From the NCBI GenBank assembly GCA_024223715.1, contig JAAEOA010000311.1, forward strand, positions 1 through 64,000: a DNA stretch of 64,000 bases, written 5' to 3'. Under the pieces are notes generated by a model. The model was not told the origin of the DNA. It saw nothing but the letters and a program-made list of their open reading frames with translations, and did not search any database. The position numbers and the translations under genes were made by a program. Below are positions 48,777-62,797 of the stretch, in pieces; within the stretch, counting starts at the first letter, position 1, and each line of letters starts with the position of its first letter. The stretch is from a bacterium (GTDB lineage: Bacteria; Krumholzibacteriota; Krumholzibacteriia; LZORAL124-64-63).

Positions 48777-49781
48777 CTAGAATAGGTCCAACAGACGATC
48801 GGCATTGCTGTCCAGTTCATCTTCCATATTGGCTGAAGTATCGGGGGCCGTGCAGTTTTTGCAAATGGGATTTTTCATCCGATTACCTTTTAACTGCATG
48901 CGAAGGAAAGATTTCTGTTTGCCGCCATTCCATATTTCCGTCAAAGGCGTTTGAGTAATATTACCAAGACCTGCGGGATCTGATTCCATACAGCATGGGT
49001 ACACATCGCCATTGGGATAAACTGTCAGGGTGTAGAAACAAATGGGACACACCAGTCTTGGGTCGTGTTCCTGACCCCAGAGGTCGACCAGGGTTTGTTC
49101 CTTAATCATGTCGGTGTAATCAATTTCGTGAAATACGGGCACAATTTTTTCCACAAACATTCGATCACTGATATCGCGGAATAGGTCGTAAAACTTCTCT
49201 TCGTCACCTTCTTCGAGGGCAACATCGGCAATTTTCACGTACACCAGACAGTCTTTTTTGTTTTCGTTGAAGTAGCGGATGTTTTCCACCAGACCATCGA
49301 AATCGATACGGGCACCGCAGACCTCATAATATTTTTCAGCTGTCAGGCCCTGCATGCTGATGCGCAGAGTATCGAGGCCGGCGTCAATAAGGGCACGGCT
49401 GGTTTCGGGTTTGAGCAGGGCGCCGTTGGTAATAAAGGCCAGATTTTCCGCCACATCGAGTTTTTTGAGATGGGCAATCTTTTTGGCCAGCAGTTTGTTG
49501 GTCAAAGGTTCGCCCACGCCATAAAGGAAAAGAGTTTTAATGCGGTCTGGAAAAGCCCTGAGCTGCTCCGCAGCCTCCAGAAAAATTTCCCAGCTCATAA
49601 TTTCCGGGATGAAACCTTTTGCTTTGAGATCGTCTTTGGGTAAAACCTGCACACAGTATTTGCATTTAAAATTGCAAACGGTTGAAACCGAAAGAAACAC
49701 TGAAAAAGGTGTTTTCAGGGGAAGGACTTCTTTTAACTGCACCCGATCCATTCCGTAGCCGGGTTTTATTTCCGAACCCAT
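48777..49781 (-). CDS. Radical SAM / SPASM-domain protein
   Basis: This 334-residue protein has Cys36/40/43 (VCNFKCKYC), which bind the catalytic 4Fe-4S cluster. LFLYGVGEPLTNKLL and FITNGALLKPE are typical of the core. The C-terminal SPASM-type cysteines (CPICFYTLTVYPNGDVYPCC, and CKNC near the end) hold auxiliary clusters. It is clearly paralogous to the C-terminal half of the epimerase-radical SAM fusion in the same unit. No precursor peptide is nearby, so a sugar or lipid-linked substrate is more likely than a RiPP. AGGAG precedes the ATG. Confidence 0.9.
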   Translation of the reverse strand: MGSEIKPGYGMDRVQLKEVLPLKTPFSVFLSVSTVCNFKCKYCVQVLPKDDLKAKGFIPEIMSWEIFLEAAEQLRAFPDRIKTLFLYGVGEPLTNKLLAKKIAHLKKLDVAENLAFITNGALLKPETSRALIDAGLDTLRISMQGLTAEKYYEVCGARIDFDGLVENIRYFNENKKDCLVYVKIADVALEEGDEEKFYDLFRDISDRMFVEKIVPVFHEIDYTDMIKEQTLVDLWGQEHDPRLVCPICFYTLTVYPNGDVYPCCMESDPAGLGNITQTPLTEIWNGGKQKSFLRMQLKGNRMKNPICKNCTAPDTSANMEDELDSNADRLLDLF

Positions 49782-51328: not shown

Positions 51329-53854
51329 TTACGTCGGTGAGTTCACTCCATTATCAATTAAGGTGATAATCTGGCCTTTGAACCCCAGGGCCAGGGCAGA
51401 GTCAACTACGGCCTCAGTGTGAGCTACAGCAGTTACCAGCAATACGGAATCATCGGGTGCGTCTTTTAAGATTTGGGCAGGGCCGATGCTCATGCCGGCA
51501 ATAGTATGAGTCGCCTGTTTTAAGGTATTCAAATCGATAAGACCTTTGAGGTTGCATTGGGATAATTTGGTGGATTCGTGCAGGTATTCAAACTCGCGCC
51601 CAATGCCCCAGGCATAAACGGGTTTTTGGTTTACCGAAAATTCTTCCAGGGTTGTTTGCCGCCGGGATAATAACTGAGCCTGTTGCGCCAGATAATGTGC
51701 CATGGTTTGTTTCAATTCCTGAGAATTTGAACCGGAAGTGTTTTGTGTGGAGGGTTGCCCTGTTAGGCGAAAGATTCCGTACAAAGTGGGCATGACCATT
51801 TTATCACTCATGACATCGTGGTTCGTCTGATGTGAACTGAGAAGTTCAAAGCCTTCATTTTGGGCCAATTGTTTCAAATGCGGGGTGTCGAAATGTTGAA
51901 TGTGTTCGCGCAACAGTACCCAGTAGTAGTCGAAGTATGGTTCGTCGGAATATCGGGCGGCGTCGGGCACACCAATGCAAAGAATGCCATTTTTACGCAT
52001 GACCCGGGCTGCTTCTCGAAAAGCCAGGCCAGGGTTAATGAGATGCTCCATTACTTGTTCGAGTACCAGAAAGTCGAATTGATCTTCTTCAAAAGGAAGC
52101 GATTCGGCCTGTCCATGTTCGACAGTGCAACCAGTGTTTTTGCGCGCCTGTTCAACGTAGTTATTAGCCATGTCAACGCCGGCTAAATCGTGAAATCCTT
52201 TGGTTTTCAGGAATTGGAGGAAACCACCAACGGCGCAGCCAACATCCAAAACCCGATGATCAGGTTTCAGGTATTCTTCAACAAATCCATACATTTGCAA
52301 ATAGCGGGCGCTCGTCAGACTGTCTGCACTGCCGGGCCGGTCGCCTTTGCTGCCCGAGGCTTTTAAATTAATGGGTGCATATTCTTCATTATAATATTGG
52401 TACAATCCGTTCAATTCATCTTCGGTAATGTTGTTGTAAACGTGTCCACATTGCTGACAACAAGCCAGCCGGACGGTGGAGTAGAGAGTGGACCCATCGA
52501 GATTTCCGGTTTCCATTTCCAACAGATTATCATCGTTGGGGCTTTGGCAAACGCTGCAGGGGAAAAACTTCATGTCCATCCTTTGAATTCGTTGAGCCCA
52601 TTTTTTAAGGTCGTCGTTGTGAGGGAAGGTTTGGGAAAAATGCTGCACCGATCCTTTGGTCTTTTCAAAAAACGTTGGTCGTTTGTCCGATTTGGAGCTG
52701 GGAAGGGGCTTGTTATTGAGGAAAATATCAGGGTCGCTTTGACCAGCCAGAAACCACTCAGTGCTGGAGGTCCCCAGGGCGCCGGTAAAATCAATAATCG
52801 ACTTATCCCGGTTCATTAGTGAGGAGAATGCCTGGTCAAATTTTGCAGATATACCTGGTGAGGAGAAATTTCGTCGGACCCAGTCGGAGGCTGCTTGGCC
52901 CAACTTCACTCTTTGACCAGGATTGGCATTAAGATATTCCATGGCTTGGGCGAATTGCCGTGAATTGCTGACCACCAGGCCAGTGACCTGGTCCTGGACA
53001 ATAATTTTCTCAACGGGGTGGTCAAGAACAACTGGTACAACGGCAGAGGCCATGGCCTCAAGCAGAGCGTTTTCTGTGGTGCCGTAATGATGCGGGTTGA
53101 GCAGGTACGGCATGACATTCATGCGAGCCAGGGCTCCCACCGGGTCAGCTGTGTAACCCAGAAAATTGAGCAGTTGGGGACGTCCGCATTCCTTGGCCTG
53201 CTCCTGAAGGAGTTCCAGATGAAGCCGGTCGGCATAAATATCGATTGAAAATATTGTATCTTCAATTGCCGCCAGGTAAGCGACAAAATCAGGATTCAGT
53301 TTGGAGAAATTCAAACTGCCAAGATACCCTGCTTTCAAAGGTTCATTGGCAGACCGGTTGACAGGTTCAATTTGGGGGAACCCGGCGCAACTGTTAATGA
53401 CAGTGGCCTTTTCAGTTTTGTTCAGAACTGACTGGAGATTGGGGCACGAAAGAGTGCTGGCCGAAGTGAAAGCAATGATATGAGAGGCATGAACAATTCC
53501 CGGAGGAATCAAAGGGGTGCTGAGGCCATTGACATGGACCCAGGTAAGTAAACGCATGGAAGGGAGCGGACGGTTGCAAAGGCGTTGATAAAGTGCCGGG
53601 TGCTGCCACCATTCAATCTGAACGATATCCGCTTCATTAATTTTCTGATCCAGGAAAGAGTCGTCAGGGGCAATGTGCACTTCACAGCCCAAGGCGATCA
53701 ATTCATCAGCGGCCACAACTTTTTCAGGAACTTCCAGGCAACAAATTTCATGTTTCCAGGCGGAATGATGTTGCTTCTGTGCGGCGACCATGCCAGCGAG
53801 GGCTCGGCCCACACCCCCGCCAAGATGGGGCGTTATGTGCAGAACCCGGTTCAT
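51329..53854 (-). CDS. Fusion: GT4-like glycosyltransferase plus SAM C-methyltransferase
   Basis: In this 841-residue protein, residues 1-375 are GT-B-like (VLHITPHLGGGVGRALAGM, AGYLGSLNFSKLNPDFV, TTENALLEAMASAVVPVVLDHP). Residues about 465-510 have Cys pairs (CSVC, CCQQCGHV) like the zinc site of TDP-sugar C-methyltransferases. Residues about 565-680 are a class I methyltransferase (VLDVGCAVGGFLQFL, FLVLEQVMEHLINPG). Residues about 770-841 are a Rossmann-like cap (VYAWGIGREFEYLHES). The second half as a whole resembles C-methyltransferases of branched deoxysugars. The start ATG overlaps the preceding stop as ATGA. Confidence 0.85.
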   Translation of the reverse strand: MNRVLHITPHLGGGVGRALAGMVAAQKQHHSAWKHEICCLEVPEKVVAADELIALGCEVHIAPDDSFLDQKINEADIVQIEWWQHPALYQRLCNRPLPSMRLLTWVHVNGLSTPLIPPGIVHASHIIAFTSASTLSCPNLQSVLNKTEKATVINSCAGFPQIEPVNRSANEPLKAGYLGSLNFSKLNPDFVAYLAAIEDTIFSIDIYADRLHLELLQEQAKECGRPQLLNFLGYTADPVGALARMNVMPYLLNPHHYGTTENALLEAMASAVVPVVLDHPVEKIIVQDQVTGLVVSNSRQFAQAMEYLNANPGQRVKLGQAASDWVRRNFSSPGISAKFDQAFSSLMNRDKSIIDFTGALGTSSTEWFLAGQSDPDIFLNNKPLPSSKSDKRPTFFEKTKGSVQHFSQTFPHNDDLKKWAQRIQRMDMKFFPCSVCQSPNDDNLLEMETGNLDGSTLYSTVRLACCQQCGHVYNNITEDELNGLYQYYNEEYAPINLKASGSKGDRPGSADSLTSARYLQMYGFVEEYLKPDHRVLDVGCAVGGFLQFLKTKGFHDLAGVDMANNYVEQARKNTGCTVEHGQAESLPFEEDQFDFLVLEQVMEHLINPGLAFREAARVMRKNGILCIGVPDAARYSDEPYFDYYWVLLREHIQHFDTPHLKQLAQNEGFELLSSHQTNHDVMSDKMVMPTLYGIFRLTGQPSTQNTSGSNSQELKQTMAHYLAQQAQLLSRRQTTLEEFSVNQKPVYAWGIGREFEYLHESTKLSQCNLKGLIDLNTLKQATHTIAGMSIGPAQILKDAPDDSVLLVTAVAHTEAVVDSALALGFKGQIITLIDNGVNSPT

Positions 53855-55755
53855 GAATTGTTTTTTCTGGCATCGAGAAGGTTTGACAGAACCCGGGAGG
53901 CAAATGGGTCGATGTTGTCGGGGGAGCAATGAGACAGTTGGCCGCATTCAGCGCAGAATTCATCCTCCTTGCGGCGGCCTTCAAGATGGGCCACCCGGTG
54001 ATTGTGCAGTTTGTCGCCATTCCAAATGGAAAGCAGGCTCTCGTTTCTGATATCACCAAGAACAAGTTTGCGGGCCCAGTCCAGGAAGCACAGGCTGGTA
54101 ATTCCATCGGCGTTTATGGCCAGAGAATAGAAAATATAAGGACAGGTATTTACTTCGCCGATGGGTTGATCGTAAATGCCCTGATTGATGGAAATGTTGC
54201 AGCGCTCTTCAACATCGAATTCGGGCCAGCAGGGAGCCATGTTTTCAATGAAGATGCGGTCGGCGTAATTGCCAAAAGTATCGTAGAAGAATTTCTTGTC
54301 GTCTTCTTTCAGGTGATCACCAGCAATTTTTATACAGATCTCACAGTTGCCTTTGGCTTCATATAAGAGCTGGATGTTTTTAACATAGCGCTCGAAGTTT
54401 ACCGAACGGCCGGTGAATTCCTGGAATTGTTCATCGGAAAGACCATCGACAGAAATGTTGATTCGGTCCAGACCAGCCTGCAACGCGGGTCCAATAACCT
54501 CGGGCGTAAGAAGAAAACCGTTGGTGGTTGTATCTACGGTTTCGGCCACGCCGCTATCTTTAGCCAGTTGAACCATTTGGGCGAAGTTTTTATTCAGCAA
54601 AGGTTCGCCGTCTTTGTACAGGCGCAATACTTTTAAGGGGTCGGGAAAGGCTTTCAGGTCTTCAATGATTTTTAAATACAAATCCCAGGGTAGTTGTCCC
54701 TGCCAGCGACCGGTTTTTTTAATGAGATCCGGATCACCCGTGGGGCAGAACTGACATTTAAAATTACAGCTGCTTGAAGGGTCAACAAAGAGAACCATGG
54801 GAGTGGCCAGAGGGATAACTTTTTCCAGCCGGGTGCGCCCTTCCTGATTGATGCGCGGCTTTATTTCAGCTTTCATTTTGGGCTGGTTCTGGTTTTGAGG
54901 TTGGTTGTCCAGGGCATTCTCCAATTGAGTAAGAACTTCGCGGTTTCCCCAGAAAGCCTTAGGCTCGTATTCCGGGCATGGATAATGGCCGGTGAGGAGT
55001 TTCATTTCTGAAGATCGTTTTTCCAAATGATTTTCAACCAGACTGAGAATAGAGACCGGCTGGCCCGAGCAAATATTCACAATGCCGGAAAAACCGGGGC
55101 TTTCGGCAATTGTGCAAAGGTTCACCACAGTCTTAAACACCGGTTGGAAATCGCGAATTTGATCGCCTGGGGACATTTTGAAATCGGCATCGCCGTTGGC
55201 AATGGCCTGGTCCAAAAGTGAAAAAAGGCTTCCGGAATGTTGTCCTGGGCCAAACATGTAAAAAAGCCGGGCCCATTGAAGGTTGGCGTTGTATTGGGCC
55301 GCTGATTTTTCAAGCGCCAGTCGAAGTTTATTTTTGGCTTTGGCATACTTGGTAACGGGATTAACTCCGGAGGTCTCTTCCTGAGAACCTTCGGCCAATC
55401 CGTATTCAAAACAGGTTCCGGTGACCAGAAGTCTGTTCATGCCAGAGCCGAGCAATTGAGTAAGAAAATCAATTTCTGCCGGAAGGGTTTCATCGAGGTG
55501 GTAGTTTGCCTGGAAGTTTGGCAGGCCGGGCCAGGCCAAATGAATGGTAAGGTCTACGGAGGGGATTTTCTGAACCAGATTTGGGATGTCTTGGTGCAGG
55601 TCCCCCTGAATCCAATTGACTGCTGCAGCCAGGGGCAGGTTTCTGGCTTTGGCCTCATCCCGGACAATAGCCGTGACTTGGTGACCCCGACCCAGAAGCA
55701 TGGGTAAAAGATGTCGCCCCACAAAACCGGTGGCGCCAGTCAGGAGAATGTGCAT
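53851..55755 (-). CDS. Fusion: nucleotide-sugar epimerase/reductase plus radical SAM/SPASM
   Basis: In this 634-residue protein, residues 1-285 form an extended SDR of the epimerase/dehydratase family, with GATGFVG (7-13), LLVTGTCFEYG and the catalytic YAKAK. Residues about 315-634 form a radical SAM enzyme with Cys330/334/337 (SCNFKCQFC) and LRLYKDGEPLLNK. Cysteines of a SPASM-type domain follow (NTCPYIFYSLAINADGITSLC, and CAECG near the end). A Gln/Asn-rich linker (NQPQNQNQPK) joins them. The SDR part may be the 4-ketoreductase of a CDP-deoxysugar route. AAGGAG precedes the ATG and the stop overlaps the next start. Confidence 0.9.
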   Translation of the reverse strand: MHILLTGATGFVGRHLLPMLLGRGHQVTAIVRDEAKARNLPLAAAVNWIQGDLHQDIPNLVQKIPSVDLTIHLAWPGLPNFQANYHLDETLPAEIDFLTQLLGSGMNRLLVTGTCFEYGLAEGSQEETSGVNPVTKYAKAKNKLRLALEKSAAQYNANLQWARLFYMFGPGQHSGSLFSLLDQAIANGDADFKMSPGDQIRDFQPVFKTVVNLCTIAESPGFSGIVNICSGQPVSILSLVENHLEKRSSEMKLLTGHYPCPEYEPKAFWGNREVLTQLENALDNQPQNQNQPKMKAEIKPRINQEGRTRLEKVIPLATPMVLFVDPSSSCNFKCQFCPTGDPDLIKKTGRWQGQLPWDLYLKIIEDLKAFPDPLKVLRLYKDGEPLLNKNFAQMVQLAKDSGVAETVDTTTNGFLLTPEVIGPALQAGLDRINISVDGLSDEQFQEFTGRSVNFERYVKNIQLLYEAKGNCEICIKIAGDHLKEDDKKFFYDTFGNYADRIFIENMAPCWPEFDVEERCNISINQGIYDQPIGEVNTCPYIFYSLAINADGITSLCFLDWARKLVLGDIRNESLLSIWNGDKLHNHRVAHLEGRRKEDEFCAECGQLSHCSPDNIDPFASRVLSNLLDARKNNS

Positions 55756-55770: not shown

Positions 55771-56325
55771 TTAGGGCTCGGGGGTAAAAACAAAAGGGGA
55801 CAAATAGTCTTCAAGGGTTGGCCATTGCAGATCACGTTCGGAAATAATGGGTTCCCGGTCTGGCCAGGGAATGCCGCAGGAGTCCCAGAGAATTCCTTTG
55901 TCGTTGTCCGGAGCATGCACCGAAGCAACCTTGTACATCATAAGAGTGTGTTCCTCGAGAGCCATAAACCCGTGGGCCATACCCCGGGGAATATACAGCA
56001 TGTTGGCTTTCCGTGAATCGAGAGTCAGGGTCAGGTATTGACCATAAGTTGGTGAGCCTGTTCTCAGATCTACCACAACATCGAAAGCTCGACCGGCAGC
56101 ACAATGCACAATTTTTTCATGATCAAAGGGAGGTGTCTGAAAATGCAGTCCCCGCAGAACATCTTTATTGGAGAAAGAGTAATATTCCTCCTGCCAGTTG
56201 GTGGTTAAGCCATGTTCGGTAAAAAAATCCTGATTGAAGGTTTTGACAAAAGACCCTCGGTTATCTTTAAAAGCAGGCACCAGAATTTCCAGACAGCCAG
56301 GCAATGAGGTTGGGCGAATTTCCAC
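55771..56325 (-). CDS. rfbC: RmlC-like nucleotide-4-keto-sugar 3,5- or 3-epimerase
   Basis: This 184-residue cupin enzyme follows the dTDP-4-dehydrorhamnose 3,5-epimerase pattern: DNRGSFVKTFNQDFF, LRGLHFQ with the catalytic His, VVVDLRTGSPTYGQYL, and YIPRGMAHGFMAL with a Tyr-containing loop further on. Here it is surrounded by CDP-sugar genes, so the substrate may be a CDP-4-keto sugar rather than the dTDP form. The start is GTG, 2 bp after the stop of rfbH. Confidence 0.88.
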   Translation of the reverse strand: MEIRPTSLPGCLEILVPAFKDNRGSFVKTFNQDFFTEHGLTTNWQEEYYSFSNKDVLRGLHFQTPPFDHEKIVHCAAGRAFDVVVDLRTGSPTYGQYLTLTLDSRKANMLYIPRGMAHGFMALEEHTLMMYKVASVHAPDNDKGILWDSCGIPWPDREPIISERDLQWPTLEDYLSPFVFTPEP

Positions 56326-56327
56326 TG

Positions 56328-57692
56328 TTATACTCCCGCGGCCTGGCGCAAAATACTGATGGTGTGACTCAATCGGGCATTGTCCAGACCAGGATAAACT
56401 CCCAGCCAGAAAGAATCACGCATGACACGGTTGGTCTGGGACAGGTCACCTACGACCCGGTAACCGGAACCGGAATTTCGCATTTCATCAAAGCAGGGAT
56501 GGCTCAACAGGTTTCCCGCAAAAAGCATCCTCGTTTGAATGCCATTTTTTTCCAGATGGTCGACCAGCTGGTCCCGGTTAAGCCCGGAGCCTTCGCGCAC
56601 GGTCATAAGAAAGCCAAACCACGAGGGTTTGGAGTTGGGGGCCGCCTCGGGAAGTATGATTCGGTCGGCCAGATCCTCGAGGTTGTCGTGCAGGGTTTGC
56701 CAGTTGTTGCGACGGGCTTCCACAAAACCAGGCAACTTCAACAATTGGGCACACCCAATGGCGGCTTGCATTTCAGTAGTCTTCAGGTTGTACCCGAAGT
56801 GGGAGTAAACAAATTTGTGGTCGTAACCCCTGGGAAGCAGGCCAAATTCACCCTCGAAACGTTTGCCGCAGGTGTTGTCTCGACCCGAGGCACACCAGCA
56901 ATCGCGTCCCCAGTCACGGAATGAAGTGACCAGTTTTTTCAGACGTGTTTCCTGAGTCACAATGGCTCCTCCTTCGCCCATGGTCATGTGGTGGGGAGGA
57001 TAAAAACTGGAGGTGCCCAAGTGACCAATGGTTCCAGTATTCTGCCACTGACCATCTATCATAACTTCTGAACCGAGAGCGTCGCAGTTGTCTTCGATTA
57101 ACCATAGATCGTTTTGCTCACAAAACCCTTTGATGGCAACAATGTCGAAAGGATTGCCCAGAGTGTGGGCCACCATGACTGCTTTTGTCCGGGGACTGAG
57201 GGCCTCTTCCAGCTGCCCGACATCCAGATTGTACTGAGGAATGGTGATATCCAGGAATACAGGTATGGCACCATATTGAATGATGGGAGTAACAGTTGTG
57301 GGAAAACCGGCGGCAATGGTGATGACTTCATCGCCCACCATAATGCGGCGGTCCCCAAGAGTTGGGGACGTAAGAGCCATAAATGCCAATAGGTTGGCCG
57401 ATGATCCACTGTTTGTTAAACTGGCGTGTTTTACTTGCAGATATTGGGCAAATTGTTTTTCAAATTGATGCGCATAGCGACCGGCGGTGAGCCAGAAATC
57501 GAGAGATGAATCGACCAGATTCAACATTTCCTGCTCGTCAAAAACCCGACCTCCGTAGGAAATTCGGTCGCCGGCTTTGAATGAATCCGGAGAGCCATGG
57601 ACCCACTGAAAATATTCAGCGGTGGCTTCAAGAACTTTGGTGCGCAGTTCTTTCTCTTTGGATTTGTTGTTGTCGGGATTTTTCAATTCCAT
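56328..57692 (-). CDS. rfbH: CDP-4-keto-6-deoxyglucose-3-dehydrase (E1, RfbH/DdhC)
   Basis: This 454-residue PLP- and [2Fe-2S]-dependent dehydrase removes the C3 hydroxyl of CDP-6-deoxy-4-hexulose. It has a DegT/AHBA fold with GSSANLLAF, IEDNCDALGS and SSFYPPHHMTMGEGG, where His replaces the usual PLP-lysine, the hallmark of E1. The cluster-binding cysteines CWCASGRDNTCGKRF are present. The N-terminal RISYGGRVFDEQEM is typical. The ATG touches AGGAG directly; a TTG two codons later has better spacing (6 bases) and may be the real start. It lies 9 bp after rfbF. Its reductase partner E3 is not in the window. Confidence 0.95.
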   Translation of the reverse strand: MELKNPDNNKSKEKELRTKVLEATAEYFQWVHGSPDSFKAGDRISYGGRVFDEQEMLNLVDSSLDFWLTAGRYAHQFEKQFAQYLQVKHASLTNSGSSANLLAFMALTSPTLGDRRIMVGDEVITIAAGFPTTVTPIIQYGAIPVFLDITIPQYNLDVGQLEEALSPRTKAVMVAHTLGNPFDIVAIKGFCEQNDLWLIEDNCDALGSEVMIDGQWQNTGTIGHLGTSSFYPPHHMTMGEGGAIVTQETRLKKLVTSFRDWGRDCWCASGRDNTCGKRFEGEFGLLPRGYDHKFVYSHFGYNLKTTEMQAAIGCAQLLKLPGFVEARRNNWQTLHDNLEDLADRIILPEAAPNSKPSWFGFLMTVREGSGLNRDQLVDHLEKNGIQTRMLFAGNLLSHPCFDEMRNSGSGYRVVGDLSQTNRVMRDSFWLGVYPGLDNARLSHTISILRQAAGV

Positions 57693-57701
57693 CTCCTGAT
57701 G

Positions 57702-58493
57702 TTAATCCCAGGTTTTCCATTGGGGGTTGCCTGCTGTCCACATCTGTTCCAGTTCTTCCTTGTCCCGCAAAGCATCCATGCATTTCCAGAAACCGCTGTG
57801 TTTGTACGCGGCCAGTTGCCCTTTTTGAGAAAGCTGGGCCATGGGCTCGTGTTCCCACATAACCAGATCGTTGTCTTCAGGTATGAAATCAAAAACTTCT
57901 GGTTGCAGAACAAAAAAACCACCGTTGATCCAGCCGCCTCCGTTGGTGGGTTTTTCCTGAAAGTCGCAAACTAAATTGTCGTCAGTCAGGCCCAGCAAAC
58001 CAAAACGTCCGGCAGGCCGAACAGCGGTGACGGTGGCGGCTTTTCCACTCTGTTTGTGAAAGGAAACCAGTTTTTTCAGGTCAACATCTGCCAGCCCGTC
58101 ACCATAGGTCATCAGGAAAGGTTCATCTTTAACATATCGCTGAATTCGCTTGAGGCGACCAGCGGTAAGGGTTTTTTGACCCGTATCGACCAGGGTGACT
58201 TTGAATTTCTCGGTATTGCTGCGGTGGATCTGGTGAGTATTGGTCGCCAGATCCACCGTAATGTCTGAATTGTAATGAAAATAATTAAGGAAGTAGTCTT
58301 TAATCATGGCCCCTTTATAACCCAGGCAAATGATAAAATCATCGAACCCCTGATTTTCAAAACCCTTCATTATGTGCCACAGAATGGGGCGCCCACCAAT
58401 TTCAATCATTGGCTTGGGTTTCAAAAAAGATTCTTCCGAGATGCGTGTGCCCAAGCCGCCGGCAAGGATTACGACCTTCATGCTGCAGTCCAT
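57702..58493 (-). CDS. rfbF: Glucose-1-phosphate cytidylyltransferase
   Basis: This 263-residue enzyme makes CDP-glucose from glucose-1-phosphate and CTP, the entry step to CDP-3,6-dideoxyhexoses. The signature VVILAGGLGTRISEE, KPKPMIEIGGRPILWHIM, FLMTYGDGLADVDL and the C-terminal YKHSGFWKCMDALRDKEELEQ match RfbF/DdhA. AGGA precedes the first ATG; a second ATG four codons later is possible. The following gene rfbH performs a later step. The intermediate CDP-glucose 4,6-dehydratase is not in the window, except that it may lie upstream beyond the edge. Confidence 0.95.
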   Translation of the reverse strand: MDCSMKVVILAGGLGTRISEESFLKPKPMIEIGGRPILWHIMKGFENQGFDDFIICLGYKGAMIKDYFLNYFHYNSDITVDLATNTHQIHRSNTEKFKVTLVDTGQKTLTAGRLKRIQRYVKDEPFLMTYGDGLADVDLKKLVSFHKQSGKAATVTAVRPAGRFGLLGLTDDNLVCDFQEKPTNGGGWINGGFFVLQPEVFDFIPEDNDLVMWEHEPMAQLSQKGQLAAYKHSGFWKCMDALRDKEELEQMWTAGNPQWKTWD

Positions 58494-59757: not shown

Positions 59758-60978
59758 TTATTCCATTTCAAAGACAATTGATTTGATGGCTTTTTCCACT
59801 CGGGCTTCCGCTTCCTGACGACCCGAACCCATAGCAATAATAAAGCCAGCCCGATCCGGATGAGCTTTCACCTGGGGAATAACATCACCCTCATTGCAGT
59901 ACAAAACCGCTTTGCAAATTCCAGGCTGATCGGACAAATCCGCTAATCCTGAGACACACTTGATGGTTCCTTCAGGAGGGAAAAAATACCTGATAGCAAC
60001 ACCGGAATCCCGGATTGGTTTGACCATATCAGGAGTAACGTCCGAACCCAGGGCGTGCAATATAGCCAATGCCACAAGGTCAATTCCTGTCGCAAGTGGT
60101 ATTTGGTCCGTGGCGAAATAGCCTCCACTGAGGCGGGCGGCAATTTCAATAACACAGGGCCCATCAGGCCCCACTACGATGTCTCCTTTTACAATACCAT
60201 CGGAAATACCCATGGCCAGGGCCGCACTCTCAACCAGATTGTTGATTTCCCAACGCTGGTTGGCTGTCAGCCGCGCCGGTTGAGTACCGCCGTCTTCAAT
60301 AATATAAGGCTTGAATTGTTGCAATCGCCCGTAATTTCGATCTGCATAGGCGGCAGTGTGGCATTTGCGCTTGATCATCATGGACTCAGTGCTGATTTGA
60401 GGGCCGACAATAAAATTTTCGACCATGAGACGACCTACAGAAGAAAAGCTCATGGATTCGTCCCAGGCTTCCTGCAAATCCATGGATTCGTCGAGCAGCA
60501 AAACTCCCCGTGCTCCGCGTCCGTCAACCGGTTTTAGAATCAGGGGCCAATTCCAGTCTCTGGCTGCTATTAAAATATCCTGAGGCTCGGTAACAGGTCT
60601 GAAGAGTGCCGTGGCCACATTGTTATCTGCAAAAACCCTTTTCATCAGCATTTTGTCTGCTGCAATTTCTGCCGCCTTAATGCCGATGCTGGGCAAACCA
60701 AAATACTCCGCCACTGTAGCCACTGTAACCGGTACATCGTTGGCAATTGTCATAACCCCGGCCAAGGGGTATCCAGGATTTTCCTGGCAGTATTTTATAA
60801 CGGCATTCAGGGTGTCCTGAGGGTCCCGTGTGCTGGCAATAATGCGGTCATCGGCAAGGTTGAAGGCAGGGGCCTCGGGGTCCCAATCGGTTCCCACAAC
60901 ATGATACCCCATACTGGAGGCAAGTTCATAAGCCCGAACCTGTTCTATTCCCGCTCCTATTATCAGAAATGAATTCAT
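59758..60978 (-). CDS. ATP-grasp ligase-like protein
   Basis: This 406-residue cytosolic protein has an N-terminal Rossmann segment (FLIIGAGIEQVRAYELASSMGYHVVGTD) and the ATP-grasp core. DKMLMKRVFADNNV, PLILKPVDGRGARGVLL, VENFIVGPQISTESMM and the metal-binding GPCVIEIAARLSGGYF are present. It resembles carbamoyl-phosphate-synthase/PurK-type ATP-grasp proteins that join a carboxylate to an amine or thiol. In a glycan cluster it could attach an amino acid or acyl group to a sugar. It is coupled to the TPP enzyme gene by an ATGA overlap; a longer frame would start inside that gene. Confidence 0.88.
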   Translation of the reverse strand: MNSFLIIGAGIEQVRAYELASSMGYHVVGTDWDPEAPAFNLADDRIIASTRDPQDTLNAVIKYCQENPGYPLAGVMTIANDVPVTVATVAEYFGLPSIGIKAAEIAADKMLMKRVFADNNVATALFRPVTEPQDILIAARDWNWPLILKPVDGRGARGVLLLDESMDLQEAWDESMSFSSVGRLMVENFIVGPQISTESMMIKRKCHTAAYADRNYGRLQQFKPYIIEDGGTQPARLTANQRWEINNLVESAALAMGISDGIVKGDIVVGPDGPCVIEIAARLSGGYFATDQIPLATGIDLVALAILHALGSDVTPDMVKPIRDSGVAIRYFFPPEGTIKCVSGLADLSDQPGICKAVLYCNEGDVIPQVKAHPDRAGFIIAMGSGRQEAEARVEKAIKSIVFEME

Positions 60979-62693
60979 TGTTGATGGCCTTTTGGGCGGG
61001 AAGTCCACATTTGATTCAGGGGTTGTCCCCCGAGCAGCATCGGGTCTATATCAGCGTTAGGATCGAGTCGACAATGCACCAAGGCAGGTCCCGGGTGCTC
61101 CAAAGCCTTTTGGCAAATGACTGGCAATTGATCGGGTTGATCAAGTAACCAGCTTTTGATTCCATATGCCTGGCCAATCGCTTTAAAGTCAGGATTGGTT
61201 TTGTTGCCGCAGGTCAGATCTTCGGGCCAGTTCATCAACTGAAATTGAGAGACAAGAGCCAGGCGGGAATTATCCATGACGAATATTTTCACTGGCAGAT
61301 TGAAGTCCACAATGGTTTGTAATTCCTGAATGTTGATTTGAAAAGATCCATCGCCTGCAAAACAAATTACGGTGTGGTCGGGGCAGGCAAAAGCGGCCCC
61401 AACTGCGCTGGGTAAATCGTAGCCCATGGCACCATGGCCGGCGGAAGTCAGAAAGAGGCGGTCCGGTGAATGAAAAGAGAAATGACGGGCGGCCCAATGC
61501 TGATGGCTGCCAACACCAGTGGTGGCAACAATGCGTTGTCCCTTGGTTAATTGGTTTATGGCTTCCACAAGAGTTTGGGGGAGGATTTTTTCTTTTCCAG
61601 GCGCCACACTCAGAGAGTGTTCCTGCTTCCAGGTTTCTATTTTCTCATGCCACGATTTAAGATCGTTGGGCGATGTCGGTTTCAGCAGATTGTTGACCCG
61701 ACTCAAAAACTGATCAACATCGGCAAAAATCTTCAATTGAGTATCCACTCTGCAGTGTTCCAGCTCGTCAACATCCAGGTCTACGTGAATGATTTTTCCA
61801 TCAGCAGCCAGGCTGCTTGTTTCAGAGCCGGTAATGCGAACATCCAGACGGGACCCAAGGACCAGTAACAGGTCGGCTTCATGCAGGGCCAGACCGGCGT
61901 ATTGATTTCCGGTATGACCGGCAAAGCCCAGACTCAAATCAGAGTCTTCATCAAAAGAACCAATTCCCGGCAAGGTTGTGACCACGGGAATGCGGAACTT
62001 TACAGCCAGATCATTCAGGCTCTTGGTTGCACCGGAAATTAATACGCCTTGTCCGGCAAGAATGACCGGGCGTTGGGCCTGGGCAATCATTTCGGCAGCA
62101 TTTTGCGTGAGATCCTGATCCAGGTCGGGCAAATCCAGCATACCCGCTGGGGGTGCAATTTTTTCAGGAGACCCTTTAATGGAATCACGTTGCACATCCA
62201 TGGGCAAATCGATAACCACCGGACCGCAGCGCCCATCAACTGCCAGCTGGAAAGCCTGTTCCAGTCTTGGGGCGGCATCGTCCGGTTTGGCGGGTTGCCA
62301 GGCGGCTTTGCAGATACCATTCATCAGGCCAAGGCAATCTATTTCCTGGAAGCCCAGCTGCCGAACCTTTCGACCACTGAACAGATCACCGGTTCCCACC
62401 TGGCCGCAAATGGCGACCAGGGGAGTTGAGTCGTAAAACGCATCAGCAATAACGGTGGCTAAGTTGGTGGCACCGGGACCGGAAGTAACCATGACCACCT
62501 GAGGCTGGCCAGTCAGTCGAGAAGCAGCGAGAGCCATGTATCCGGCACCTTGTTCGTGACGGGCGCAAACAATTTCAATTCCCAGCTGTGAAAGAGCGTC
62601 GTAAAGGGGAGCAATGGTGCCACCGGGAAAAGTGAAAACCCGTTTTAATCCCTGGTCCCGAATTACCTGGGCCATGCTCAATGCACCGGTCAT
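60975..62693 (-). CDS. Acetolactate-synthase-like TPP-dependent enzyme (possible YerE-type)
   Basis: This 572-residue ThDP enzyme has three domains. The N-terminal pyrimidine-binding domain has VFTFPGGTIAPLYDAL and the activating Glu47 (ARHEQGAGYMA). A middle domain (VILAGQGVLISGATKSL) follows, then a C-terminal pyrophosphate-binding domain with GDGSFQINIQELQTIVDFNL and DNSRLALV. It could be a biosynthetic acetolactate synthase, but its place in a deoxysugar cluster suggests the YerE type. That enzyme adds a two-carbon acetyl unit from pyruvate to a CDP-3,6-dideoxy-4-hexulose. The ATG was preferred over a TTG four codons earlier because neither has a clear ribosome-binding site and the family begins here. 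Confidence 0.85.
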   Translation of the reverse strand: MTGALSMAQVIRDQGLKRVFTFPGGTIAPLYDALSQLGIEIVCARHEQGAGYMALAASRLTGQPQVVMVTSGPGATNLATVIADAFYDSTPLVAICGQVGTGDLFSGRKVRQLGFQEIDCLGLMNGICKAAWQPAKPDDAAPRLEQAFQLAVDGRCGPVVIDLPMDVQRDSIKGSPEKIAPPAGMLDLPDLDQDLTQNAAEMIAQAQRPVILAGQGVLISGATKSLNDLAVKFRIPVVTTLPGIGSFDEDSDLSLGFAGHTGNQYAGLALHEADLLLVLGSRLDVRITGSETSSLAADGKIIHVDLDVDELEHCRVDTQLKIFADVDQFLSRVNNLLKPTSPNDLKSWHEKIETWKQEHSLSVAPGKEKILPQTLVEAINQLTKGQRIVATTGVGSHQHWAARHFSFHSPDRLFLTSAGHGAMGYDLPSAVGAAFACPDHTVICFAGDGSFQINIQELQTIVDFNLPVKIFVMDNSRLALVSQFQLMNWPEDLTCGNKTNPDFKAIGQAYGIKSWLLDQPDQLPVICQKALEHPGPALVHCRLDPNADIDPMLLGGQPLNQMWTSRPKGHQQ

Positions 62694-62797
62694 TTTTGAT
62701 GCCAATCTGAAGAAGTTTTTGGGCTCCAGCCCATAGGGTAACCTTTAGTATTGGCAGATTAGAGGCAACTGGAGCAATGGTCAAGTGCGGAGGAGCT

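Follow-up and report, generated by a model that had tools for sequence, protein, structure and literature searches.

The question raised by this locus is whether one polypeptide truly joins an extended SDR to a radical-SAM enzyme and, if so, what the two halves would do together. In the window, i.e., the whole 64,000-nucleotide stretch of DNA analyzed here, a minus-strand frame opens with an ATG at 55755 and ends with a stop at 53851, without internal stops, whereas the plus-strand reading of 53851–55755 contains stops throughout. Pfam matches are arranged along its 634 aa in the order Epimerase (5.7e-25, aa 3–205), Radical_SAM (4.2e-20, aa 327–470), and SPASM (8.8e-13, aa 538–604), and three such matches in one frame are far above chance level. 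The fusion is real in the assembly. The first-pass annotation of this DNA had described one frame encoding an SDR with GATGFVG and YAKAK, a Gln/Asn-rich linker, and a radical-SAM core with Cys330/334/337; all of these were located, GATGFVG at aa 7–13, the linker with a length of 10 residues, and the cysteines at exactly the stated positions in a CX3CX2C motif, and its description holds except for the SPASM assignment. The architecture is a rare fusion of operon neighbors, for which a mechanism is proposed.

Organization of the Fused Gene

The gene and its parts are as follows.

53851–55755, minus strand: SDR::radical-SAM/Twitch fusion gene, 634 aa, with an AAGGAG ribosome-binding site ahead of the ATG
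54907–55755, minus strand: extended SDR domain, aa 1–283 (TGATGFVG, T6–G13; GTCFEYG, 113–119; YAKAK, 137–141)
54877–54906, minus strand: linker NQPQNQNQPK, aa 284–293, followed by an ATG without a ribosome-binding site
53851–54876, minus strand: radical-SAM/Twitch domain, aa 294–634, whose Met294 aligns with orthologue start codons (50–52% identity)
54745–54768, minus strand: CNFKCQFC, radical-SAM cluster ligands C330/C334/C337, from motif and alignment
54217–54231, minus strand: CWPEF with C509, candidate H-atom donor
54127–54144, minus strand: C538, auxiliary cluster ligand 1, from alignment
54076–54090, minus strand: C556, auxiliary ligand 2 (CX12GX4C), from alignment
53944–53955, minus strand: CAEC with C601/C604, auxiliary ligands 3 and 4, from alignment

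Stand-alone orthologues of the second half (50–52% identity) are found on a Brachyspira plasmid, in three Desulfobacterota genomes, and on one viral contig. Their N-termini, MKAKIKPRID or MKAEIKPRIE, align with Met294 of the fusion, and the radical-SAM half therefore corresponds to a whole protein. On the other side of the junction, SDR homology continues in frame up to the SDR C-terminus. An assembly or consensus error, in which two genes were merged by the loss of a stop or frame shift at the junction, is improbable. The source is a fragmented draft (439 contigs, 6.65% contamination), the parts are separate in all relatives, and a TGA in the +1 frame lies within an ATGA overlap exactly at Met294. 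However, an ATGA is frequent by chance at an ATG-AAA start, the SDR end and the radical-SAM start are both intact, and the internal Met294 ATG has no ribosome-binding site, whereas the SDR (AAGGAG), a radical-SAM paralogue nearby (AAAGGAG), and RfbH (CAGGAG) each have one.

The Radical-SAM/Twitch Half

The radical-SAM half matches PF04055 with 73 bits, and seven cysteines, arranged as CX3CX2C, CX12GX4C, and CX2C, are invariant among ten aligned members. Twitch and SPASM domains have been defined previously (PMC9012708); a SPASM domain carries the seven-Cys motif CX9-15GX4C ... CX2CX5CX3C ... C and two auxiliary clusters. A full two-cluster SPASM domain was rejected here despite a PF13186 match, because the conserved auxiliary cysteines are only C538, C556, C601, and C604, C610 is variable, and the CX3C element is absent. 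The SPASM-type cysteines of the first-pass annotation thus number only four, all assigned to one auxiliary cluster, and the C-terminal domain is, as judged from the alignment, a BtrN-type Twitch with one predicted four-Cys auxiliary cluster.

The same relationship emerges from the fold and from the family profile. Structure prediction, which had been proposed as a check on the fusion, was performed with AlphaFold on each half by itself. The model of the radical-SAM half (pLDDT 92.7) has BtrN (2-deoxy-scyllo-inosamine dehydrogenase, 4M7T) as its top PDB fold (E 6e-14), and BtrN is also the top solved structure in the family profile search (4e-26), with all seven cysteines in register. Both proteins comprise a radical-SAM core and a four-Cys Twitch, and the substrate of BtrN is sugar-like, although identity over the fold alignment is 19% and the radical-SAM half comprises about 340 residues against about 250 in BtrN. 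Furthermore, unlike BtrN, the fused enzyme has an additional clade-invariant C509, is encoded in a CDP-sugar operon, and is attached to an SDR.

C509 is present in 10/10 radical-SAM orthologues of its own clade and in 0/11 paralogues. In the radical-SAM epimerase NeoN, an extra cysteine, Cys249, donates the hydrogen atom (PMC10991966), and the Twitch enzyme HygY becomes a dehydrogenase upon mutation of a single cysteine, according to the title of Besandre 2021 as cited in PMC10991966. HygY and NeoN act on sugar substrates, and C509 would be the counterpart of these cysteines. Since C509 is clade-specific and the cysteines of NeoN and HygY have these roles, an epimerase is proposed for the radical-SAM half; the candidates we tentatively favor are an epimerase resembling HygY/NeoN, in which C509 would supply the hydrogen, or else a BtrN-like dehydrogenase.

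The SDR Half and the CDP-Sugar Operon

The SDR half matches PF01370 with 88.5 bits (cut-off 20.9). Its nucleotide-binding TGxxGxxG motif corresponds to T6–G13, with the glycines invariant in the alignment, and the catalytic positions T114, Y137, and K141 are invariant across seven relatives. The solved folds nearest to its AlphaFold model (pLDDT 93.1) come from UDP-sugar epimerases and other extended SDRs related to them, MoeE5 ranking first (E 3e-20).

The neighboring genes indicate a CDP-sugar setting, the operon being RfbF-RfbH-RmlC-[SDR::radical SAM]-[GT::MT2].

48777–49781, minus strand: stand-alone radical-SAM/Twitch paralogue, 35–36% identity
49796–51229, minus strand: B12-binding radical-SAM protein, same cluster
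51329–53854, minus strand: GT4-type glycosyltransferase::class I methyltransferase (MT2), next operon gene, with an ATGA overlap with the fusion stop
55771–56325, minus strand: RmlC-like 3,5-epimerase, upstream gene in the same operon
56328–57692, minus strand: RfbH, CDP-4-keto-6-deoxyglucose 3-dehydrase
57702–58493, minus strand: RfbF, glucose-1-phosphate cytidylyltransferase
60975–62705, minus strand: ThDP enzyme, acetolactate-synthase-like, within the CDP-sugar cluster

A WbuX-type amidotransferase and an ATP-grasp protein are also found around the fusion. The stand-alone paralogue starts at the Met294 equivalent and has no equivalent of C509. RfbF and RfbH are present, although no convincing candidate for RfbG (CDP-glucose 4,6-dehydratase) was found in the 90%-complete assembly, and the CDP-sugar pathway is therefore incomplete as assembled. 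The ThDP enzyme was considered as YerE, and this was rejected by sequence because acetolactate synthases are closer; a YerE-type sugar-branching role is possible from context only.

The closest SDRs (39–45% identity) are stand-alone proteins in the last sugar-forming slot of RfbF-RfbG-RmlC-MT1-SDR operons without a recognized radical-SAM gene (L055, L057, L085, L086, L093, and L218). Such operons occur in several phyla and on plasmids, and the 4,6-dehydratase is a gene of its own in them. For instance, the SDR of Desulfolutivibrio plasmid p1 is 43% identical to the fused SDR and occupies the same operon slot, but it is stand-alone, its substrate is uncharacterized, and no recognized radical-SAM gene adjoins it. 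From this operon position and the known logic of CDP-deoxysugar pathways, the SDR half most likely reduces a CDP-4-keto-deoxysugar.

This assignment bears on the earlier proposal that the SDR, as a dehydratase or epimerase type, makes a keto sugar and channels it to the radical chemistry. The extended-SDR fold and the top match to MoeE5, a UDP-sugar epimerase, are compatible with that proposal, but a place among CDP-sugar genes suits a reductase step and the 4,6-dehydratase slot (RfbG) belongs to a different gene in relatives. Because the SDR occupies the putative ketoreductase slot of CDP-deoxysugar operons, many of them without a recognized radical-SAM gene, it is more likely to consume a keto sugar than to supply one; the direction of channeling was probably stated the wrong way round, and we consider the original proposal very improbable.

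The Same Two Enzymes as Separate Genes

In Desulfobacterota and on the Brachyspira plasmid, the SDR and the radical-SAM enzyme are encoded by separate genes within one CDP-sugar operon. The two genes abut in frame in G258 with a single TAA between them, and gaps of 42 nt and 62 nt separate them in G293 and G205, respectively. A 652-aa frame in G293 was examined as a second fusion and rejected, the SDR stop lying 42 nt before the radical-SAM gene. The gene order RfbF-RfbG-RmlC-(MT1)-SDR-radical SAM-(MT2/GT) is seen at two loci (L079 and L081), and a third (L080) has the same SDR-radical SAM order on a fetched stretch without the RfbF-RmlC end. In these three loci the gene following the SDR is an orthologue of the radical-SAM half, and in L083, L084, and L090 it is a more distant radical-SAM gene. 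The fused SDR is only 26–30% identical to the SDRs beside radical-SAM orthologues, compared with 43% to the group without radical SAM, and the slot was therefore probably refilled at least once.

No second fusion was found among 72,556 plasmids or about 1,000 genomes, i.e., 80 genomes of the same phylum and samples of 395, 68, 400, and 77 genomes of other phyla, the three best candidates per genome being scored in the 395- and 400-genome samples. A scan of 84,980 species genomes was limited to a few exact peptide patterns, and open frames of >540 aa picked up by weak matches in relatives involved matches below the level of true orthologues. These searches thus gave no indication that the fusion is common. 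No paper was found in the literature search on an SDR and a radical-SAM enzyme paired in one protein or on the chemistry of this BtrN-like radical-SAM family. The first-pass annotation stated that no characterized enzyme with this pairing was known; no second fused form appeared in the collections searched, but the two enzymes are known as neighboring separate genes in the same operon slot, and the protein is therefore a lineage-specific gene fusion rather than a novel type of enzyme. At 1e-20, neither half had relatives in the 79 remaining genomes of the phylum, which is the pattern expected if a surface-glycan locus was acquired laterally.

On plasmid pBHWA1 of Brachyspira hyodysenteriae, the corresponding block is BHWA1_02678–02681 (radical SAM, GT, NAD epimerase, and rfbC), the correspondence being deduced from gene order and product names. 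Its radical-SAM protein is 50% identical to the fused domain, and relatives of the GT, SDR, and RmlC are also present as around the fusion, but the SDR and radical-SAM genes are separate and non-adjacent, and the SDR is just 26% identical. BHWA1_02678–02681 are found in virulent B. hyodysenteriae strains and are missing from low-virulence strains (PMC4267127). Several radical-SAM/Twitch genes stand in tandem on pBHWA1 (L054).

Radical-SAM orthologues (43–52%) are also encoded on viral contigs (IMG/VR L098, L100, L101, and L104) with the same GT and/or MT2, and no CDP-sugar genes were found within their 3-kb flanks. The substrate of the radical-SAM half may consequently not be the SDR product. 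If the functions are independent, the radical-SAM enzyme would act on the glycan or on a GT/MT2 acceptor or donor, and the fusion would be a neutral accident. Besides the viral association, the next gene, GT::MT2, is itself a fusion (junction ATG at 52573), whereas G258 (L059) and G205 (L060) encode its two parts in separate genes; this suggests that fusions arise freely at this locus. By contrast, SDR-radical SAM adjacency recurs across several genomes, and independence is regarded as a possible but less probable explanation.

Proposed Function

A complete extended SDR and a complete BtrN-like Twitch radical-SAM enzyme, as assigned by homology, are encoded by separate adjacent genes in relatives. 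We modestly favor the view that the fused protein is a bifunctional CDP-deoxysugar or surface-glycan enzyme that arose when two adjacent operon genes merged into one frame. The SDR half would act as an NAD(P)H-dependent ketoreductase and reduce the RfbF/RfbH/RmlC product at its 4-keto group to give an alcohol. The radical-SAM half would then take a carbinol hydrogen from the SDR-made sugar, either free or after transfer, and the resulting carbon radical would be quenched by C509, leading to HygY/NeoN-like epimerization, or oxidized via the auxiliary cluster in a BtrN-like dehydrogenation. The fusion would hold the reductase and radical steps together, although relatives make the parts separately and the chemistry therefore does not require it.

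The reverse order of events has also been considered, in which the radical-SAM half oxidizes a sugar hydroxyl to a ketone and the SDR reduces it from the opposite face, with net inversion of one carbon. The SDR adjoins the radical-SAM gene in several genomes, and both the fold search and the profile search place the dehydrogenase BtrN nearest; in BtrN, the four-Cys auxiliary cluster has been proposed to accept the electrons. Nevertheless, members of the SDR family also function where no radical-SAM gene is recognized in the operon, implying another substrate for the SDR, and the clade-specific cysteine suits a one-enzyme epimerase at least equally well; this order appears rather unlikely. A more specific form of the bifunctional reading is similarly doubtful: a single-polypeptide sugar isomerase in which the SDR would set one stereocenter of a CDP-deoxysugar by hydride transfer and the BtrN-like half would invert another, unactivated carbinol with C509 as hydrogen donor, the cassette being common to bacteria and viruses and tied to virulence-associated gene content in Brachyspira.

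The fusion itself is a modest one-off, and the underlying cassette is the more interesting as a pointer to a widespread uncharacterized surface-sugar modification. A fusion of operon neighbors indicates enzymes that work together, and it links an uncharacterized, widely spread BtrN-like radical-SAM family, whose reach includes viral contigs and a gene block lacking in low-virulence B. hyodysenteriae, to CDP-deoxysugar biosynthesis. Furthermore, the fusion is a single expressible protein in which what one half makes can be presented to its partner.

Two further observations concern the surrounding glycan region. The B12-binding radical-SAM protein has a 59% identical relative in G363 (L084:16660–18075), encoded in an RfbF-RfbG-RmlC-SDR-radical SAM-GT operon. 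On the same contig beyond the window (L052:10846–12735), a NeuB-family synthase (Pfam) carries a C-terminal extension that is PseG-like by eye (GGPGMGHAARLL), and this protein is possibly a third fusion of the region.
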